From assembly GCA_004524515.1 (NCBI GenBank), contig SDNV01000132.1, forward strand, positions 1-7,505: DNA of 7,505 nucleotides. Direction: 5' to 3'. Below the pieces are notes generated by a model that had not been told where the DNA came from, ran no database searches, and saw only the letters and a list, made by a program, of their open reading frames with translations. Made by a program: the position numbers and the translations under genes. Origin of the DNA: Promethearchaeota archaeon (GTDB taxonomy: Archaea > Asgardarchaeota > Lokiarchaeia > Sigynarchaeales > SOKP01). Below are positions 1 to 7,505 of the stretch, piece after piece (position 1 is the first letter of the stretch; every line of letters starts with the position of its first letter).

Positions 1-220
1 TATTTTGGTTTAAAGCGATGGGTCTAAATTGAAACATATTATTAAAAATAGCTTAAAGTATATTTAATTTTTATTAATGGAAATTAGAAACATCAAATAA
101 AAATGCGAATAGCCTAAGATTTTTGGAAAAGATCTAGAATTCAAAATTTTAATAAATATCTTTAACTAATTATATTTAATTTATAAAAAGGGGATTAGTA
201 GATTTTTTAATCTAACTTAG
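1..220. other. Non-coding left edge / leader region of cassette 1
   Basis: All frames are interrupted by stops. The first 30 nt could hold the last few codons of an upstream gene, but this cannot be judged. The right part holds the cassette 1 TATA element. Nothing else was recognised. Confidence 0.4.
180..188 (+). promoter_or_regulatory. TATA box of cassette 1
   Basis: TTTATAAAA sits in an A/T run and is centred 37 nt before the ATG at 221. Archaeal transcription starts about 26 nt from the TATA centre, which gives a start near 210 and a leader of only about 10 nt. That agrees with the absence of a Shine-Dalgarno sequence before this gene. AT-rich background makes chance matches common, so confidence is moderate. 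Confidence 0.45.
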
Positions 221-1243
221 ATGAATGATAAAGATCTAATTTTAGGCTTGTTTTACTCCGATGAAGACAACTTAATTTATGAGAGATTCTCCCAGGATTT
301 ATCGGATGAGAGTGAAAAAAGCTTAAGAATGGTTTCCTATAAATTTTTAGGTCCTTTATTTTTTACTGCGGCAAGTGGTAATGGAAGTAATTGGAAAATT
401 GAATTTATTGAATCTTCTTTATCACAGTATCAAAATAGAACGCTGGATGTAGATGTCCTGCAGTCATTTTTTAGTCTAAATTCTTCTATTGATACAGAAT
501 CCGGATGGACAAATCTCTCGGCATTGATTGGGTCTCCATATACAGAAGATATTAACCTAATTTACAGAAAAATGATCGAATATATTCATCCAAGTATTAT
601 TCAGGGTAAATTTGTTGCCGAATCTATTATGGGGGGAGATTTTAAGTTTAAAAACTTCATTCGATATGAATTGGAGAGAGGTCTAAATTTAATTGATTAT
701 ACGCTTGGATCAGCAAGAAAATTGCCATGGGAAGAACAACAGAATTATTACTGTGTTGGAATAATAGAAAGAATAAATAATAAAAAAGGAATAATATCCA
801 ACTTCTACTCATTTGATAAAGATGACAGTTTAAGAAAATTTGTATTGCCTTATATTCCTTCTTTTTATGTAATGAGCATTTTACCCGATTATTATGAAAA
901 ACTCATTAATGAAGCTTTAGAATTATTTAATAAAACAAGTATATTTTCAAACATTAAACTGATTAAATTAAGTTATAATGATAAGAAAGTTCTATATCTA
1001 GAAGAATTCATTGTCATAGATAATGAGAAAAGAAGTTATGGCGTAATTTTAATTCCAGAGTTGGAAGATTTAAGGGGTGGCCAGAATTTATCATTTTATA
1101 AGAGAAATTTGAGGTTTATTTTAGACACCAATAAAGAGCTAAATGAAGTCTTATTTACAATAAATCCCCAATTTGTGTTCGATAGTTGGTCTATTCAATC
1201 CGAAGAAGGATTAAATAATCTTAGAAACTGTTTTGATTGCTAA
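221..1243 (+). CDS. Family A protein, cassette 1 (unknown function)
   Basis: I do not recognise this 340-residue protein. It has no signal peptide, no convincing membrane segment and no Cys/His metal cluster, so it is probably soluble and cytosolic. Blocks shared with the copies at 2002 and 4279 are ILGLFxSxE (residues 7-15), FLGPxFxTA (42-50), QSFFSxNSSI (81-90), TNLxAxIGSPYTED (97-110), HPSxIQGK (123-130), CVGxxERI (178-185), IPSxYVMxILPDYYE (212-226), YLEE (259-262), YGVIL (273-277) and YKxxLRxILDxNK (293-305). Alternating hydrophobic stretches (7-20, 245-280) suggest beta strands between helices. An in-frame TAG at 218-220 directly precedes the ATG, and the start matches the other two copies. 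There is no Shine-Dalgarno sequence; the TATA element at 180-188 implies a very short leader. The partner B gene begins 21 nt downstream. This copy lacks about four residues after residue 22 relative to the others. Confidence 0.9.
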   Translation: MNDKDLILGLFYSDEDNLIYERFSQDLSDESEKSLRMVSYKFLGPLFFTAASGNGSNWKIEFIESSLSQYQNRTLDVDVLQSFFSLNSSIDTESGWTNLSALIGSPYTEDINLIYRKMIEYIHPSIIQGKFVAESIMGGDFKFKNFIRYELERGLNLIDYTLGSARKLPWEEQQNYYCVGIIERINNKKGIISNFYSFDKDDSLRKFVLPYIPSFYVMSILPDYYEKLINEALELFNKTSIFSNIKLIKLSYNDKKVLYLEEFIVIDNEKRSYGVILIPELEDLRGGQNLSFYKRNLRFILDTNKELNEVLFTINPQFVFDSWSIQSEEGLNNLRNCFDC

Positions 1244-1264
1244 TTTTAAAAGAATTTAAAAAGA

Positions 1265-1840
1265 TTGAGCAAAAAAATGTCAGAGAAACAAATTTTTAAT
1301 ATTGATAAGAGGCGGTTAACTACATATTATGAAAGAATTAGAAACCAATCTCCGAGTTTACCTGAAACCGAAACACTGGCAAAATTTCTTTTAAGTCAGT
1401 CGGTTGGAAATTCCTATGATCAAGTTTTAATGGTGCTTAATTATTATAAAGAAAAAATTAGGGATAATGTTAATATATTAGAATTTGCTTTTGAATGGAT
1501 ACGCGCTCAAAATATCAGGTTAGAGTATAAAAAACATCTTAATAAAGCACAGTATTCAAATTTGGATTTGGCAATTGATGATTGTATTTTTCTTTTTTTC
1601 ATTTCTTATGATAGACATTTAAGACGCATTCTTAAAGAGAATATAAAAGAATATGAAGTAAGCGCACTTTATGAAGCACTTTTCAGTCCAGATAATAAAG
1701 ATTTTAATATAATAAGAATGTTAGAAGAACATAAGAGTATTGTACCCACTTTTTTTAAAGAAACAAAAAGAATTGATACTAGCATAATTACCTTACGAAA
1801 TGGGTTATTAGAAGTTATAAAGGATGATTTTGATCGATAA
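1265..1840 (+). CDS. Family B protein, cassette 1 (unknown function)
   Basis: This 191-residue charged protein, apparently mostly helical, is of no family I recognise. Blocks kept in all three copies are IDxxRLxxYYERIxNQ (residues 13-28), KFLxxQSxG (40-48), FEWIRAxxIRxxYxKxLxxAQ (76-96), the YDxxxR element (115-120), ALYExxFSP or SLYExxFSP (134-142) and TLRxGL near the end. No membrane segment or signal peptide is visible. TTG at 1265 is preferred as start because it makes the N-terminus align without gaps to the copy at 5350, with FEWIR at residues 76-80 in both. An in-frame ATG at 1277 would give a product four residues shorter and cannot be excluded. The gene lies 21 nt after its A partner with no clear Shine-Dalgarno sequence, which fits co-transcription and perhaps translational coupling. 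Confidence 0.87.
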   Translation: MSKKMSEKQIFNIDKRRLTTYYERIRNQSPSLPETETLAKFLLSQSVGNSYDQVLMVLNYYKEKIRDNVNILEFAFEWIRAQNIRLEYKKHLNKAQYSNLDLAIDDCIFLFFISYDRHLRRILKENIKEYEVSALYEALFSPDNKDFNIIRMLEEHKSIVPTFFKETKRIDTSIITLRNGLLEVIKDDFDR

Positions 1841-1898
1841 TTCATCTGTATAACAACATAATAAGAGAGAATTATCAAATCAATTATTTTAAATTTGT

Positions 1899-1918
1899 TT
1901 TACGGATAAAAACGTAAA
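1899..1918. terminator. Small inverted repeat followed by T4 after cassette 1
   Basis: TTTACG and CGTAAA form a perfect 6-bp stem with an 8-nt A-rich loop, followed by TTTT at 1919-1922, 58 nt after the stop of the first B gene. It could be a weak terminator or an operator just upstream of the cassette 2 TATA element at 1936. The stem has only two G/C pairs, so it may be neither. Confidence 0.25.
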
Positions 1919-1935
1919 TTTTGGAAAAAATTAAG

Positions 1936-1945
1936 CTTATAAAAA
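1936..1945 (+). promoter_or_regulatory. TATA-like element of cassette 2
   Basis: CTTATAAAAA lies about 60 nt before ATG 2002 and predicts a leader of about 35 nt. The string AAGCTTA at its left edge also occurs before cassette 3 (from 4202) at a similar distance from the start, which gives slight support for a shared promoter. Confidence 0.35.
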
Positions 1946-2001
1946 TTAACTTTATTCAGTAGTAAAGACATTTATTTTCAATTTTCAATTGATTTATTGA
2001 A

Positions 2002-3033
2002 ATGAAGTACGACGATAGAATATTAGGGCTTTTTTTTTCAAACGAAGATAATCTTATTTACGATAATATCAAATTTTCCGAAAACTTGACCGATGATAAA
2101 AAAAATCAACTTAATATGTTATCCTACAGATTTTTAGGGCCTGTATTCTTAACCGCTGCAATTAGTAACGGCGATAAATGGAATATTACGCTTATAGAGT
2201 CTTCCTTAAGCCATTATCAGGGTCAAGTATCTGATGTCATACAATCGTTTTTTAGCCTAAACTCTTCAATCACCTCAGAAGATGGAATTACGAATCTTTT
2301 TGCCTTGATTGGCAGTCCATACACTGAGGACTTAAATGAACTATACAATATTTTAACAAAATATATACACCCGAGCATTATTCAAGGGAAGATAGTAAAT
2401 GAGGATCTCTTAGGCAATAGATTTAATTTTCATAAATTTATACGCTCTGAAATGATTCGAGGGCTTCATCTAATAAATTATTCTCTTGGAGCTTCACGCA
2501 AGGTTTACTGGAAAATGCAGCATAATTATTCTTGTGTGGGATTAATTGAAAGAATAATATCTCACGAAAATAAGAAATTTTGCTTATATACCTATGACGA
2601 GAATGATCCTCTGAGAAAAGAAACGTTAAAGTTTATCCCATCTTATTATGTAATGTGCATTTTACCAGATTACTATGAAAATTTAATAGATGAAACTTTA
2701 CACATATTTAATAAAGCAAGTCTATTTGCTAACATTAGATTAATTAATTTAAGCAACCACGACAAAAAAGTAATTTATTTAGAAGAATTTAAGGTTGAAA
2801 AAAATATTAAAAAAAGGTATGGAGTTATATTAGTTCAGGATTGCAAATCTTTAGGAAATCCTAAAAAAATTTCATATTATAAAAAGAATTTGAGATTGAT
2901 CTTAGATGGAAACAAAGAATTGAATCAAAATTTAGAGTTATTCAATCCGAAATTTACAAACAAAAAATGGATTACTCAATCAGAAGAAGATCTTAATAGA
3001 ATCAAAGCGTTGCTCGATAATTTCGACAATTAA
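2002..3033 (+). CDS. Family A protein, cassette 2 (unknown function)
   Basis: This 343-residue paralogue of the proteins at 221 and 4279 aligns with them along its whole length and keeps all their blocks, including IGSPYTED, HPSIIQGK, ILPDYYE, YLEE and the C-terminal YKxxLRxILDxNK. It lacks two residues before QSFFS, where the other two read VDV or VDL. It shares with the third copy the YDNIKxS segment missing from the first. Like its relatives it looks soluble and mixed alpha/beta. The start is fixed by an in-frame TGA at 1990 and by alignment of all three N-termini (MNDKD, MKYDD, MKAAD, each followed closely by ILGLF). A TATA-like element lies at 1936-1945. Its B partner starts 27 nt downstream. 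Function is unknown; dependence on the B partner is inferred only from the repeated pairing. Confidence 0.9.
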   Translation: MKYDDRILGLFFSNEDNLIYDNIKFSENLTDDKKNQLNMLSYRFLGPVFLTAAISNGDKWNITLIESSLSHYQGQVSDVIQSFFSLNSSITSEDGITNLFALIGSPYTEDLNELYNILTKYIHPSIIQGKIVNEDLLGNRFNFHKFIRSEMIRGLHLINYSLGASRKVYWKMQHNYSCVGLIERIISHENKKFCLYTYDENDPLRKETLKFIPSYYVMCILPDYYENLIDETLHIFNKASLFANIRLINLSNHDKKVIYLEEFKVEKNIKKRYGVILVQDCKSLGNPKKISYYKKNLRLILDGNKELNQNLELFNPKFTNKKWITQSEEDLNRIKALLDNFDN

Positions 3034-3060
3034 TAACATATTATAAATTGATTGATAAAT

Positions 3061-4104
3061 ATGGAAAGGATTGAACTAGAAAAAATATATAAAATTGATA
3101 GGGAAAGACTTTCAAAATACTATGAAAGAATAACAAACCAAAGTAGAGAAATTCAAGCAATTGAAAATATCACGAAATTTTTGAATAATCAATCTATAGG
3201 CTCAACATTTAATGAAGTATATAAGATCTTAGAATATTTTGAAGATAAAGTTATTGAGCAAAAGGGATTATTAGATTTGGCCTTTGAATGGATACGTGCT
3301 CAAAAAATTCGATTAGAGTATAAGAAATATCTTATAAGAGCCCAGTATCCTAATAATGATTTGAGTTTAGCAGTTGATGATTGTATTTATCGATTTTTTT
3401 TGGATTATGATAGTTATATTAGAAAATTATTTAAAAAAGAGGTGCGTGAACATAATTTCAGTGCCCTTTATGAAATATTTTTCAGTCCATTCGACAAAAA
3501 AGCCCTGATAATTCAAGATATAATCGAAAGGCATATACATAATATCCCAACGCATTATTGCGGTTCAAAAAAAATTAATACACGCATAATGACACTAAGA
3601 GAGGGATTGTCCAACCTTATTGTGAAAGATTACGAAAATGTAATGTTTTCAAGAACAGAACATCTTCAGATTAAAAAACCGGACATTCAAAAGCAAATTG
3701 AGCCTCAACGCGAAATTTCTAAGGAATTTAATGGTACAAATATTGAACGAATAATTAAAACATATTGTTTTAACAAAATAAAAATACAATCCAATGTAAT
3801 TGAAAGCGCCATCTCTAATTTTTTAAATTCTTATTTTAAATTTGGAACATTTTACACTTTAGCAAATTTCAAGAATTTAATGATGCAAAATTTAGCGGAA
3901 TATATATATTCGGGTTTGACTGAAAAAATAAAAAGTTCTAATTCTATTATCAAAATTAAGCAAAATTTTTCAGATCCAATAGAAGAATTTAGTTTTATAA
4001 ACCAAGAAAAACGTTTAGATGGTTCTGCGTGGGTAAATGATTTAAAACCCGTACTTAATGAAATTTTAAAGCGATATTGTGATACTCTTTTTGAACAGTT
4101 TTAA
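3061..4104 (+). CDS. Family B protein with C-terminal extension, cassette 2
   Basis: This protein has 347 residues from ATG 3061. Residues 1 to about 194 are a full family B protein (IDRERLxxYYERI, KFLxxQSIG, FEWIRAQKIRLEYKK, ALYExxFSP, TLREGL). From about nt 3643 it continues for 153 residues not present in the copies at 1265 and 5350, which end at the equivalent point. The extension begins with a polar, Gln/Lys/Glu-rich stretch (about 195-225) that looks like a linker, then a probably helical region (226-347) that I cannot assign. The homology boundary coincides with an internal ATG codon at 3643, which would fit read-through fusion to a former downstream gene, though chance is possible. 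ATG 3061 gives an N-terminus matching the paralogues; TTG 3052 is an alternative that adds three residues. The gene lies 27 nt after its A partner and is followed by a T7 tract. Confidence 0.88.
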   Translation: MERIELEKIYKIDRERLSKYYERITNQSREIQAIENITKFLNNQSIGSTFNEVYKILEYFEDKVIEQKGLLDLAFEWIRAQKIRLEYKKYLIRAQYPNNDLSLAVDDCIYRFFLDYDSYIRKLFKKEVREHNFSALYEIFFSPFDKKALIIQDIIERHIHNIPTHYCGSKKINTRIMTLREGLSNLIVKDYENVMFSRTEHLQIKKPDIQKQIEPQREISKEFNGTNIERIIKTYCFNKIKIQSNVIESAISNFLNSYFKFGTFYTLANFKNLMMQNLAEYIYSGLTEKIKSSNSIIKIKQNFSDPIEEFSFINQEKRLDGSAWVNDLKPVLNEILKRYCDTLFEQF

Positions 4105-4124
4105 TAATGCTAGTTATATAACAA

Positions 4125-4131
4125 TTTTTTT
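4125..4131 (+). terminator. T-rich terminator after cassette 2
   Basis: An uninterrupted T7 run lies 20 nt after the stop of the second B gene. Archaeal RNA polymerase commonly terminates at such T tracts without a hairpin. It would separate cassette 2 from cassette 3. Confidence 0.4.
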
Positions 4132-4201
4132 ATAATTAAGTTTCAATTCACGATTTCAAATAATTATCAATAAAAAATTAGAATTTTAATTTATTGTTAG
4201 G

Positions 4202-4215
4202 AAGCTTAAAATATA
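4202..4215 (+). promoter_or_regulatory. TATA-like element of cassette 3
   Basis: AAGCTTAAAATATA lies about 65-77 nt before ATG 4279. It shares AAGCTTA with the element before cassette 2 and would place the transcript start near 4236. It is weak on its own in such AT-rich DNA. Confidence 0.3.
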
Positions 4216-4278
4216 ATATCAACTATTATCATATATGTAGGCAAATTAAATTATGCGATTATTCATGAAAGGGTATGT

Positions 4279-5343
4279 ATGAAGGCAGCAGACTTAATTT
4301 TAGGTTTATTTTTCTCAGATGAGAATAGCATTGTCTATGATAATATAAAGGTATCACAGGGTATGGCAGAGAATTTGACAGAATCAGCCCATAACCAACT
4401 TAGAATGATATCATTAAGATTTCTGGGACCTCTATTTTTAACAGCTAAAATAGAAAAAGGAAAAGAGTGGAAATTTGAATTATTAGAAGCTGCGTTATCT
4501 CAACATCAAGAAAGAACAATTGATGTAGATTTATTACAGTCATTTTTTAGTGTGAATTCTTCCATTGAATTTGAAGATGGCATTACAAACCTTTTTGCAA
4601 TCATTGGTTCTCCATATACGGAGGACGTAAAAATAATTCATGATTTACTTACAAATTACTTACATCCTAGCATGATCCAGGGAAAAGTTGTGAATGAGTC
4701 CTTGAAAGGGGGCGATTTAAATTTCGATAAATTCATAAATAATGAATTAAAAAGGGGAGTTAATGTAATTAATTATTTTCTTGGTTCTGCAAGAAAAATG
4801 TATTGGGAGGAATTGCAAAAATATTATTGCGTAGGATTTATGGAAAGAATTACGGCAATTGATGCACACTTCACTAATAAAGTCTCAAATCTTTATACTT
4901 TTGATTTTGATGATGAATTAAAGACTATGGCTTTAAAATATATCCCTTCCTTTTATGTAATGGCAATATTACCCGACTATTATGAAAATCGGATAAGTGA
5001 GACCTTAAATCTATTGAATCCTAAGATTAGTGTATATCCTGTGGTTAGATTGATAAGGTTAAGCAGTGGAGAGAATCACGTAATTTATCTAGAAGAGCAT
5101 TCAACCGAAGATAAAATTAAAAGAAGCTTTGGGGTTATACTCATCTCAGAAAATGAATCTGTTAAGGAAGCAAATAATTTGGCATATTATAAAAAACAAT
5201 TAAGATTAATTTTAGACAAAAATAAAAACATGGAAAAAACAATGATAGAAATAAATTCAAGATTAAATCCCTTTGATAAATGGAATACTCTCACAGATGA
5301 AGGTCTAGACCTGATTAAAAAAAAGCTTGATATTATATGGTAA
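4279..5343 (+). CDS. Family A protein, cassette 3 (unknown function)
   Basis: This 354-residue protein is the longest A copy. Its extra length comes from an insertion near residue 28 (GMAENL) and a longer loop after CVGFMERI. All shared blocks are present: ILGLFFSDE, FLGPLFLTA, QSFFSVNSSI, TNLFAIIGSPYTED, HPSMIQGK, IPSFYVMAILPDYYE, YLEE, FGVIL and YKKQLRLILDKNK. No membrane segment or signal peptide is apparent. ATG 4279 aligns with the other two starts; ATG codons at 4265 and 4274 are out of frame. GAAAGGG at 4267-4273 could act as a Shine-Dalgarno sequence 5 nt upstream. The B partner follows after only 6 nt, the tightest A-B junction of the three. Function is unknown. Confidence 0.9.
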   Translation: MKAADLILGLFFSDENSIVYDNIKVSQGMAENLTESAHNQLRMISLRFLGPLFLTAKIEKGKEWKFELLEAALSQHQERTIDVDLLQSFFSVNSSIEFEDGITNLFAIIGSPYTEDVKIIHDLLTNYLHPSMIQGKVVNESLKGGDLNFDKFINNELKRGVNVINYFLGSARKMYWEELQKYYCVGFMERITAIDAHFTNKVSNLYTFDFDDELKTMALKYIPSFYVMAILPDYYENRISETLNLLNPKISVYPVVRLIRLSSGENHVIYLEEHSTEDKIKRSFGVILISENESVKEANNLAYYKKQLRLILDKNKNMEKTMIEINSRLNPFDKWNTLTDEGLDLIKKKLDIIW

Positions 5344-5349
5344 TCCCTT

Positions 5350-5937
5350 ATGATTGATGAGTTAGAATTTATACAAATATTTAGAATTGATAAAGAGAGA
5401 TTAAATAGCTATTACGAGAGAATTAAAAATCAATTTCATGGATTTACTCCAGTTCAGATTATGGCGAAATTCCTTAACGGACAATCCATAGGATCTTCTA
5501 TGTACGATGTAATTATTGTGCTTGAATATTATCTAAATAAAATAATTGATGATAAAAATCTTTTAGATTTTTCTTTTGAATGGATAAGGGCAAAGCAAAT
5601 ACGTTTTCATTATACAAAATATTTAGCAAATGCACAATTCCCCGATTATGAAACGGCGGTTGATACTTCCGTCTTTTTATTTTTTCAGAGATATGATGCA
5701 ATTTTGAGAACCTTATTTAAGCGAGAAATAAAAGAATATGAGATAAGTTCTTTATACGAGGTTTTTTTTAGTCCAATGGAAATAAATCTCGATTTTAATA
5801 AGATTTTAGAAAAACAAAAAAATTTAGTTCCCACAATTTTTAGGGAATCAGAAAGACTTGATATAAGATATTATACTCTAAGAAGTGGATTGACAGATAT
5901 CATTAAGAATGATTTCGAAAAGACTATAATTAGTTAA
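5350..5937 (+). CDS. Family B protein, cassette 3 (unknown function)
   Basis: This 195-residue protein is a charged, mainly helical paralogue of the proteins at 1265 and 3061. It keeps IDKERLxxYYERIKNQ (residues 13-28), KFLxxQSIG (40-48), FEWIRA (76-81), RYDxxLR (114-120), SLYExxFSP (134-142) and TLRSGL (176-181). It is the most divergent B copy in the central block, reading FEWIRAKQIRFHY where the others have FEWIRAQxIRLEY, and it has lost the DDCI motif (here DTSV). It starts 6 nt after the A gene stop with no Shine-Dalgarno sequence in the gap, so translation is probably coupled to the A gene. It has no C-terminal extension, ending a few residues past the family core. Function is unknown. 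Confidence 0.88.
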   Translation: MIDELEFIQIFRIDKERLNSYYERIKNQFHGFTPVQIMAKFLNGQSIGSSMYDVIIVLEYYLNKIIDDKNLLDFSFEWIRAKQIRFHYTKYLANAQFPDYETAVDTSVFLFFQRYDAILRTLFKREIKEYEISSLYEVFFSPMEINLDFNKILEKQKNLVPTIFRESERLDIRYYTLRSGLTDIIKNDFEKTIIS

Positions 5938-6111
5938 TATAAAAATTCAATTAAAAAATATTATAGAAATCCCTATGACACTATTTTTAAGGATAAAAAT
6001 TATTATGACCACTAGAAAAGATTAAATATTCCAAGTTCTAAGATAAAAATTAAAAATTAATTTCAATTATAATAGGTTAAAAAACTAGGAATTTAATTAA
6101 AATAATCCACA

Positions 6112-6120
6112 TTTATAAAA
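6112..6120 (+). promoter_or_regulatory. TATA box of the 73-aa gene
   Basis: TTTATAAAA is centred 49 nt before ATG 6165 and predicts a transcript start near 6142, just ahead of the Shine-Dalgarno sequence. Promoter, leader and ribosome-binding site are consistently spaced. Confidence 0.4.
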
Positions 6121-6149
6121 TAGATCCAATCTCAAATATATTCAATATG

Positions 6150-6158
6150 AAAGGATGA
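6150..6158 (+). promoter_or_regulatory. Shine-Dalgarno sequence of the 73-aa gene
   Basis: AAAGGATGA ends 6 nt before the ATG and resembles the archaeal GGAGGTGA complement of the 16S rRNA tail. It is the clearest ribosome-binding site in the window and the main argument that this small frame is translated. Confidence 0.55.
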
Positions 6159-6164
6159 TTAAAA

Positions 6165-6386
6165 ATGAGTGAAGACGAAAAATTAGCAGAAAAGATTGAT
6201 TTTGATTCTATTTTTGATCTAAAATTAAGTGTCCAGGAATATAGTGAAAAATTGCAAGAACTCTTAGATAATAGCGGGCTTGGGATAGTAGAAAAACGAA
6301 AATTATTCCGTCAGAAAACCCAGGAATTTAAAGACGAAAAGCGCAAACCTCATCACGAAATCGAAGAAGGTCAAAAATATTATTAG
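6165..6386 (+). CDS. Small highly charged protein (73 aa, unknown)
   Basis: This 73-residue protein is rich in Glu, Lys and Asp, with an N-terminal acidic segment, a likely amphipathic helix (about residues 20-38, VQEYSEKLQELL) and a very polar, Lys/Glu/His-rich tail. It has no Cys, no membrane segment and no recognisable domain. The case for a real gene is the best ribosome-binding sequence in the window (AAAGGATGA, ending 6 nt before the ATG) and a TATA element (6112-6120) at a suitable distance. It is 227 nt downstream of the last B gene and probably not part of that unit. Its stop is separated by a single base from the stop of the convergent HEAT-repeat gene. It could be a small regulatory or adaptor protein; the sequence does not say which. 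Confidence 0.75.
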   Translation: MSEDEKLAEKIDFDSIFDLKLSVQEYSEKLQELLDNSGLGIVEKRKLFRQKTQEFKDEKRKPHHEIEEGQKYY

Positions 6387-6387
6387 A

Positions 6388-6909
6388 TTAGACTTCTTCA
6401 AAAATGTTTTCTAGTTTTTTTCTAATAATCGGATTTGATTCTAGTTCTATGTGTTTTTTTAGCTTGTTATATACTTTAGAATCATCTATGTGCTTATTAA
6501 TTAATAGATTAATTATAGACCATCTTACAGAATCATCAGGGTCTTGTAATAGAGGTAATAAGAAGTTGAGGTATTTTAAACTGTCCATCTTCCCAATCTC
6601 CATGACTGCTCTAGCTCTTACTAAAAAATCTGGATTATATAACTGAAATACTAAGGGAATTTCTATTTTATCCGTTTTTATATAATTCAATAATACTTTA
6701 AACATACTCTTTTTAAATTGATGCTGCTCATCTAAATGTTTTATAACATTTTCTATTTCCGATTCTGCTCGTTTATTTATTTTTATTAAACTTTCAAATG
6801 AGAGAAAAAATTCCTCAGATACCTCTTTTTGCAAATTATTGACTAATTTTTTGATGGTCTTATCATCGATCTGTGAAATTTTTATATAATGCCAGTTTTC
6901 TTCTTCCAC
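6388..6909 (-). CDS. HEAT-repeat protein
   Basis: This 173-residue protein starts at GTG (6909-6907); an in-frame stop lies two codons upstream and no Met occurs for many residues, which fixes this start. The C-terminal half holds HEAT-type helical repeats at roughly residues 84-108, 117-139 and 147-172. The clearest is the second, LPLLQDPDDSVRWSIINLL, with the typical D-x-x-x-x-V-R turn; the first has NPDFLVRARAVMEIG and the third NPIIRKKLENI. The N-terminal half (1-80) is helical and charged and may hold degenerate repeats. HEAT repeats form superhelical surfaces for protein binding, so an adaptor role is likely, but no partner can be named. A possible Shine-Dalgarno GGGGAT is complementary to 6919-6924. 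The gene is convergent with the 73-aa gene and divergent from the synthetase gene at 7355. Confidence 0.85.
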   Translation of the reverse strand: MEEENWHYIKISQIDDKTIKKLVNNLQKEVSEEFFLSFESLIKINKRAESEIENVIKHLDEQHQFKKSMFKVLLNYIKTDKIEIPLVFQLYNPDFLVRARAVMEIGKMDSLKYLNFLLPLLQDPDDSVRWSIINLLINKHIDDSKVYNKLKKHIELESNPIIRKKLENIFEEV

Positions 6910-6962
6910 GATTTAAATATCCCCTAAATTTTCCACTTAATATCAAAAAAAATTTTTTTATT

Positions 6963-6985
6963 TGACCTTAAATATTAAATGGTCA
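6963..6985. promoter_or_regulatory. Dyad TGACC-N13-GGTCA, possible operator
   Basis: Two 5-bp arms, TGACC and GGTCA, flank a 13-nt A/T-only spacer, 54-76 nt upstream of the GTG start of the HEAT-repeat gene. The layout resembles a site for a dimeric winged-helix or helix-turn-helix regulator. The same pentamer recurs at 7262 and 7270. Confidence 0.3.
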
Positions 6986-7261
6986 TTCTTTATTAATTAT
7001 TTTATTATTAAATCAGAAATAATTACTTAAATTATAACTAATCTTTTAAGATATTAATGACAAACTAGAAAATAAATAAGCAGTTAATAAGAAATCAATT
7101 TTCGACAAAAATATTATTAGTGTGGTAGTCTCTTTAAAAAAATGAATATCCAAATCTCAATAGAATTTTTAAACAAAATTTTTAGGAAAGTCGCAATTTT
7201 ATCTTATTCTATTAAAACAGATGAGACTATAGGAAAATCTAAACTAAATATAATGCGATTA

Positions 7262-7277
7262 TGACCTATTGACCTAA
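7262..7277 (+). repeat. Direct repeat TGACCTA, period 8
   Basis: TGACCTAT is followed at once by TGACCTAA, about 78-93 nt before the TTG start of the synthetase gene. It is a G/C-containing repeat in DNA that is otherwise almost all A/T, and it may be a regulator site. Confidence 0.3.
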
Positions 7278-7354
7278 TATCTTAAAAGAATTTTTATTTA
7301 CGAAATAATTATTCTTTTTATGTTTTATTCCATATATAAAAAGGTTATATTTAA

Positions 7355-7505
7355 TTGAATGATTTATTCTCAGAAATTGATGATATTTTCCATTCAAAAT
7401 CTCTGGCAGTGTATGGTGTAAGTAGGAAAGGCGGTTTAGGAAATATTTTATTACAGGGTTTTATTGATCAAAAATTTCCTAAGATATTCATAATTAATCC
7501 TAAAA
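7355..7505 (+). CDS. Acyl/acetyl-CoA synthetase (ADP-forming), CoA-binding domain, 5' end only
   Basis: The window ends after 50 codons. The visible N-terminus (FHSKSLAVYGVSRKGGLGN, then about 20 residues on KIFIINPK) fits the start of the CoA-binding, Rossmann-like domain of ADP-forming acetyl/acyl-CoA synthetases, whose family pattern is F-x-P-K-S-V-A-V-I-G-A-S then G-x-x-G-N then hydrophobic-x-x-x-N-P-K. These enzymes convert acyl-CoA, ADP and phosphate to the acid, CoA and ATP in archaeal fermentation of sugars and amino acids. The start is TTG: a TAA directly precedes it at 7352-7354, and there is no in-frame ATG before the conserved FHSKS. AAAAAGG at 7338-7344 can serve as ribosome-binding site. 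Whether this is a full alpha-beta fusion, the alpha subunit alone, or a short CoA-binding protein cannot be seen. Confidence 0.8.
   Translation, partial: MNDLFSEIDDIFHSKSLAVYGVSRKGGLGNILLQGFIDQKFPKIFIINPK

Follow-up and report, generated by a model that had tools for sequence, protein, structure and literature searches.

A paired gene family of Asgard archaea, mainly Lokiarchaeia, encoding a predicted double-longin protein and a helical partner, in several lineages beside a Ras-family GTPase gene

Introduction

Longin folds help control membrane-traffic switches in eukaryotic cells. Asgard archaea are related to the ancestor of eukaryotes and are rich in small GTPases and longin domains, and matching their regulators to their GTPases is hard. 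Here we describe a two-gene module, A-B, that occurs as three tandem pairs in a 7,505-nucleotide (nt) stretch of a Promethearchaeota archaeon (assembly GCA_004524515.1, contig SDNV01000132.1, positions 1 to 7,505, forward strand; hereafter the window), and some of whose relatives lie beside a Ras-family GTPase gene.

The closest described systems are platforms of longin or roadblock proteins. Tri-longin-domain Rab guanine nucleotide exchange factors (RabGEFs; HerMon: Mon1-Ccz1, HPS1-HPS4, Inturned-Fuzzy) have three longin domains in each of two subunits (PMC7703760, PMC12383261). In TRAPP, the core longins (Bet5/Trs23, TRAPPC1/C4) are separate subunits flanked by TRAPP-domain proteins (PMC10933270). 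Among prokaryotes, MglA-MglB of Myxococcus, in which MglB is a roadblock homodimer, already shows a platform protein determining the state of a Ras-like GTPase (PMC10933270). For the longin and roadblock proteins of Asgard archaea, action together with Asgard small GTPases has been proposed, and the same structural survey reports that gene order was no help for matching regulators to GTPases in MK-D1 (PMC10933270).

Results

Open reading frame (ORF) calling in the window gave six ORFs ordered A-B, A-B, A-B, all on the plus strand, as the original prediction had described. The A-B gaps of 21 and 6 nt that it gave for the first and third pairs also agree, whereas the second gap is 18 nt and not 27, because B2 had been started at the ATG at 3061 instead of the TTG at 3052. 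The array had furthermore been ended too early, at 5937, leaving out a small gene, related to the tail of longer B proteins, that we call the tail gene. The genes of the array are as follows (aa, amino acids):

221-1243, plus strand: A1, 340 aa, predicted double-longin-topology protein by homology to A2
1265-1840, plus strand: B1, 191 aa, TTG start, helical partner with the N-terminal domain only
2002-3033, plus strand: A2, 343 aa, double-longin-topology protein as modelled
3052-4104, plus strand: B2, 350 aa from the TTG at 3052 (347 from the ATG at 3061), N-terminal and C-terminal helical domains as modelled
4279-5343, plus strand: A3, 354 aa, predicted double-longin-topology protein by homology to A2
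5350-5937, plus strand: B3, 195 aa, N-terminal domain only
6165-6386, plus strand: tail gene, 73 aa, a homologue of the C-terminal tail, an optional part of B found in its long forms (388-434 aa)

A1 and A2 are 56% identical (E 1e-132) and A3 is 52-53% identical to both, while B1 matches B2 at 46% identity across the first 195 residues of B2 (E 2e-57); judged by these alignments, homology among the three A proteins, and likewise among the three B proteins, is beyond doubt. A C-terminal region of about 150 aa is found in B2 and is lacking from B1 and B3.

Relatives of A were sought with phmmer (168 found, best 120 listed) and those of B with a profile search in which only the candidates sharing most words were scored (305 found, best 120 listed). 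Among the matches listed, where the sources name the organism, it is a member of Promethearchaeota or Lokiarchaeota, with a few from Odinarchaeota, Hermodarchaeota and Thorarchaeota; a GTDB scan gave 36 A loci, every one titled Lokiarchaeota or Lokiarchaeia. Scoring the separate A and B searches for adjacency, as the original prediction had proposed, placed A in 34 of 227 genomes of the phylum and B in the identical 34. B was the next gene downstream on the same strand for 40 of the 42 A genes in these genomes, so that A and B are not mostly apart elsewhere. The two exceptions are a solo A gene (G157:C256, apparently the L027 gene) and one cut by a contig end (G153). Conversely, four B matches had no adjoining A, three of them being pieces at contig breaks and the fourth a 49-residue piece (G126:C71). 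Among the GTDB-scanned loci, B adjoins A in 34 of 36, the exceptions being L027 and L033, in the latter of which A is truncated by the end of the contig. The solo A gene of L027 precedes the gene of a 307-aa protein that matches nothing in Pfam (L027:3275-5441). In three further cases (L036:8001-9033, G132:C31 and G141:C77) an A gene broken by stops or frame changes stands beside an open B frame, reflecting either decay or sequencing error.

The trees of A and B agree in most groups, with some exceptions (L013, for example, is placed differently), and across 35 pairs the correlation between the distance matrix of A and that of B is 0.83, against a permutation maximum of 0.32. This correlation shows co-inheritance of A and B, as is expected of linked genes, and by itself does not demonstrate contact. 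The shared set of 34 genomes, the adjacency and the largely congruent trees together support the conclusion that the A-B pair behaves as one heritable unit. The claim that both genes were always copied together thus holds for the pairing and is inexact for the copying of whole pairs, since B1 and B3 are without the C-terminal domain.

Neither family had been recognized in the original prediction. This still describes B, whereas A can be recognized at the level of the fold. The longin domain has the order b-b-a-b-b-b-a-a. In the predicted model of A2 the first half reads E7-13 E19-24 H31-54 E61-71 E81-92 E95-105 H111-140 H143-161 and the second half E176-186 E191-196 H203-208 H215-235 E241-252 E255-266 E269-279 H290-302 H307-313, so that longin topology is found in both halves, as a prediction only. 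Structural matches to A include AP sigma and mu chains and zeta-COP. On the strength of the model, A very probably consists of two tandem longin-topology domains in one chain. Searches of Pfam, NCBIfam and PDB sequences, which often miss homology this distant, matched the A proteins to no longin, and none of the six A and B proteins scored above cut-off against Pfam, NCBIfam or PADLOC models. B is predicted to be all helical; structure searches returned no convincing fold match and no solenoid match for it, with its N-terminal domain barely covered. When A2 and B2 were modelled as one read-through chain the predicted TM-score was 0.73, which is compatible with a complex and is not a proper multimer prediction.

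The genomic surroundings of A-B point to a particular site. In ten loci (L001, L003-L008, L012, L013 and L020) a Ras-family gene lies upstream of A and divergent from it, and downstream of B there is a HEAT gene on the other strand; these ten Ras-family genes are Pfam-confirmed and 71-96% identical. Overall, a HEAT gene of the same cluster follows A-B in 11 fetched loci (with one gene between in L012). A search for the GTPase (E <= 1e-70) found it in 47 of 227 genomes, comprising 28 of the 34 A-B genomes and 19 others, and in 12 of the 28 genomes having both, the distance from it to an A gene is no more than 2.6 kb. Of its 48 places, 30 were fetched and read. A adjoins the GTPase divergently in nine. 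In 19 there is no A-B at the site, and HEAT and GTPase genes lie on one strand, 158-416 nt apart, with a gene for a protein of about 320 aa on that same strand in 18 of them (in three of the 19 the GTPase fell below the labelling threshold, although that gene had retrieved the locus). Seven of these empty sites are in genomes with A-B elsewhere and 12 in genomes without it. The remaining two loci have a TIM gene at the site (L134) or gave no clear arrangement (L120). HEAT, Ras GTPase and the ~320-aa protein form a conserved one-strand cluster (L113:525-2809 and 18 further loci), with A-B sometimes between HEAT and Ras. The ~320-aa protein had no Pfam match in the two cases tested; that it is a winged-helix protein is a guess.

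The borders of the array in the window are formed by the first two of the following genes:

2-37, minus strand: xylose-isomerase-like TIM-barrel gene, first 12 codons (MFQFRPIALNQN), truncated at the window edge; forms the left border of the site
6388-6909, minus strand: HEAT-repeat gene, 173 aa, PF13646 at 40 bits against a cut-off of 27.7; right border of the site
7355-7505, plus strand: start of a CoA-binding-type gene, cut by the window edge; the same neighbour as in L101

The last of these is presumably acyl-CoA-synthetase-like and CoA-binding. The TIM-barrel neighbour is PF01261 in L001 and L104. Among 1.75 million six-frame residues of the examined loci, the peptide ALNQN has seven occurrences, six times at the N-terminus of one TIM-barrel gene family (three genes, each in two overlapping loci) and once in the window. 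Because both borders match, we assign the window to the same site, arranged as TIM, three A-B pairs with the tail gene, and HEAT; the GTPase gene of this organism would lie to the left of the window, outside it.

The three cassettes are old paralogs and not fresh local copies, because the A copies are only 52-56% identical to one another and yet have much closer relatives elsewhere. Tree distances are 0.07 for A1 to P0066, 0.26 for A2 to P0065 and 0.31 for A3 to P0002, all on other contigs, compared with 0.98-1.32 between the A copies of the window. B2 and B3 also have close relatives elsewhere, while the nearest B found to B1 is distant (P0144, 0.98). In a concatenated tree, window pair 2 falls with 100% support inside a clade, here called X, that comprises L002-L008 and L012 together with the group of L010, L011, L014, L017 and L025; pairs 1 and 3 fall outside it, with weakly supported placement (40-64%). 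The site holds X-clade pairs in some genomes, and in L001, L013 and L020 its pairs are non-X. It was therefore filled more than once, or else a multi-pair array was ancestral and underwent differential loss. Within the 34 A-B genomes, A genes are never close to one another, which makes the triple array exceptional in this set. Yet it is not the only case, as three contigs told apart by their lengths (5747, 6547 and 1826018) apparently each hold two or three of the window protein types.

The tail gene matches the B proteins of L021-L024 and L030 by blastp with E values down to 7e-12, and the alignment agrees. With its profile, matches were obtained in 11 of 227 genomes; in some the tail is fused to B, in others it is a small gene of its own. 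G154 and G156 have a tail without A or B, and weak matches inside frames of about 900 aa in G168 and G171 may be chance. The tail gene stands alone between TIM and HEAT in L104 (G105), and near a contig end in L101 (G113) it is likewise a neighbour of HEAT. These comparisons show a modular B, with a C-terminal domain absent from two of the three copies in the window and an optional tail that is here a separate 73-aa gene. On contig G104:C66 (L099:2259-12584, L100:290-11839 and L106) the tail gene recurs as some twelve partial copies, several of them followed by differing sequence, in alternation with genes that by eye are toxin-antitoxin-like or encode large exported repeat proteins; the contig also holds what we take to be a HerA/VirB4-like ATPase. 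The pattern suggests that the tail gene was duplicated or repeatedly served as a point of insertion.

Longer spacers between the pairs had been described as promoter-bearing, a description that finds no support. Sites with at most one mismatch from the consensus TTTATAAA number 42 against a shuffled mean of 38.5, and TATA-like sites lie 20-80 nt upstream of 6 of 35 A genes, compared with 23% in shuffles (the L003 start is wrong). Exact sites of the TTTATAAA type occur 41 nt upstream of A1 (180-187) and ahead of the tail gene (6112-6119); both have a suitable position, and singly they are not significant.

Two other surroundings of A-B were seen. Downstream of A-B, on the other strand, L010 has a SepF-like cell-division gene at 10161-10502 (PF04472, a match tested in this locus only), and genes of its cluster hold this place in L011, L014, L017, L025 and L036. 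At L030:10412-14893 three genes of one cluster lie downstream of A-B, and the two tested match Gtr1/RagA (PF04670).

Discussion

A tandem longin chain with a near-obligate helical partner, found beside one conserved Ras gene, would most simply be explained by regulation or read-out of the GTPase. We propose, at about even odds, that the A-B complex is a longin platform acting on or with the neighbouring Ras-family GTPase. A and B would be two subunits of one complex in Asgard archaea, mainly Lokiarchaeia, and such a physical complex is probable. The two longin-type domains of A would form the platform on which helical B sits, and the complex would bind a Ras-family GTPase, at this site the one encoded next to A-B along with the HEAT-repeat protein and the ~320-aa protein. 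It may set the nucleotide state of the GTPase or couple it to a target, like longin and roadblock platforms elsewhere, although regulation as such is put forward more tentatively, at a little under even odds, and its direction (GEF, GTPase-activating protein or effector) is only inferred. The three old paralogous pairs kept in one genome could give alternative or mixed complexes, with the B C-terminal domain kept in one pair only and the tail supplied as a separate small protein. Weighing against a GTPase partner, the GTPase occurs without A-B in 19 genomes and lies away from A in 16 of the 28 having both; the association may therefore be optional, or different pairs may have different partners.

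Alternatively, the complex may have no GTPase partner, being a scaffold or serving another housekeeping role, and the place beside Ras may merely be a tolerant insertion point. We consider this unlikely, though the strongest of the alternatives: longin domains have roles other than GTPase regulation (PMC10933270), A-B has other contexts such as that beside the SepF-like gene in L010, and many genomes have the GTPase-HEAT cluster without A-B. Against it, A-B types that are not orthologous share one site, with X pairs in L002-L008 and L012 and non-X pairs in L001, L013 and L020, to which two of the three pairs in the window are added. Such sharing makes a reason for the location more likely, although losses from a single ancestral array would also explain it. 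In addition, Rag-like GTPase genes lie just downstream of A-B in L030. A variant that we regard as somewhat less likely still keeps the Ras GTPase and makes the three cassettes one hetero-oligomer, a multi-longin regulator in which an ancestral A homo-oligomer and full-length B were split among paralogs; B2 alone would retain the C-terminal domain and the 73-aa protein would give the tail in trans. A transition from homomeric to heteromeric longin platforms has been proposed for the tri-longin complexes of eukaryotes (PMC7703760), and this variant would be its counterpart.

In a coat- or adaptor-like assembly, the A longins would be structural small subunits held by helical B, as in AP/COPI, and a GTPase, if any, would only recruit; the AP sigma, AP mu and zeta-COP matches of A, the all-helical B and the HEAT-repeat protein encoded next door are compatible with such an assembly, which we nevertheless judge improbable. 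A defence or conflict cassette is very unlikely: the site contents do vary (empty, one pair, three pairs, tail alone) like those of an exchangeable island and the tail-derived repeats of G104:C66 do lie among toxin-antitoxin-like genes (by eye), but PADLOC-DB gave no family at E <= 1 for any of the six proteins, viral contigs, scanned for A and not for B, held no A relative, all 36 GTDB loci belong to Lokiarchaeota or Lokiarchaeia and the A and B trees largely agree. The original prediction had held a signalling or cell-biological complex to be as likely as defence; of the two, the former fits better with the longin topology of A and the Ras-GTPase cluster in relatives.

The locus provides a definable pairing, as the near-obligate A-B pair lies between one conserved Ras gene and HEAT in several lineages and is absent there in others, and this makes a direct biochemical test possible. 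It also bears on the origin of multi-longin GTPase regulators, before or in early eukaryotes, and family B adds a protein family without a recognizable fold in the searches made.

MglA-MglB is not known to have a B-like subunit. Among the neighbours tested, no TRAPP-domain gene was recognized beside A-B. Our search of titles and abstracts found no description of the A-B pair, and a tandem double-longin protein with a helical partner is not described in the passages of the Asgard survey considered here (PMC10933270). A tri-longin RabGEF identity was considered for A-B and rejected, because A has two predicted longin-topology domains in 343 residues and its near-obligate partner is helical instead of being another longin protein. 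The longin and roadblock proteins of Asgard archaea, such as the Lokiarchaeal 8yqg, have archaeal group and fold class in common with A. We file A-B as a longin platform with an unplaced partner family, B.

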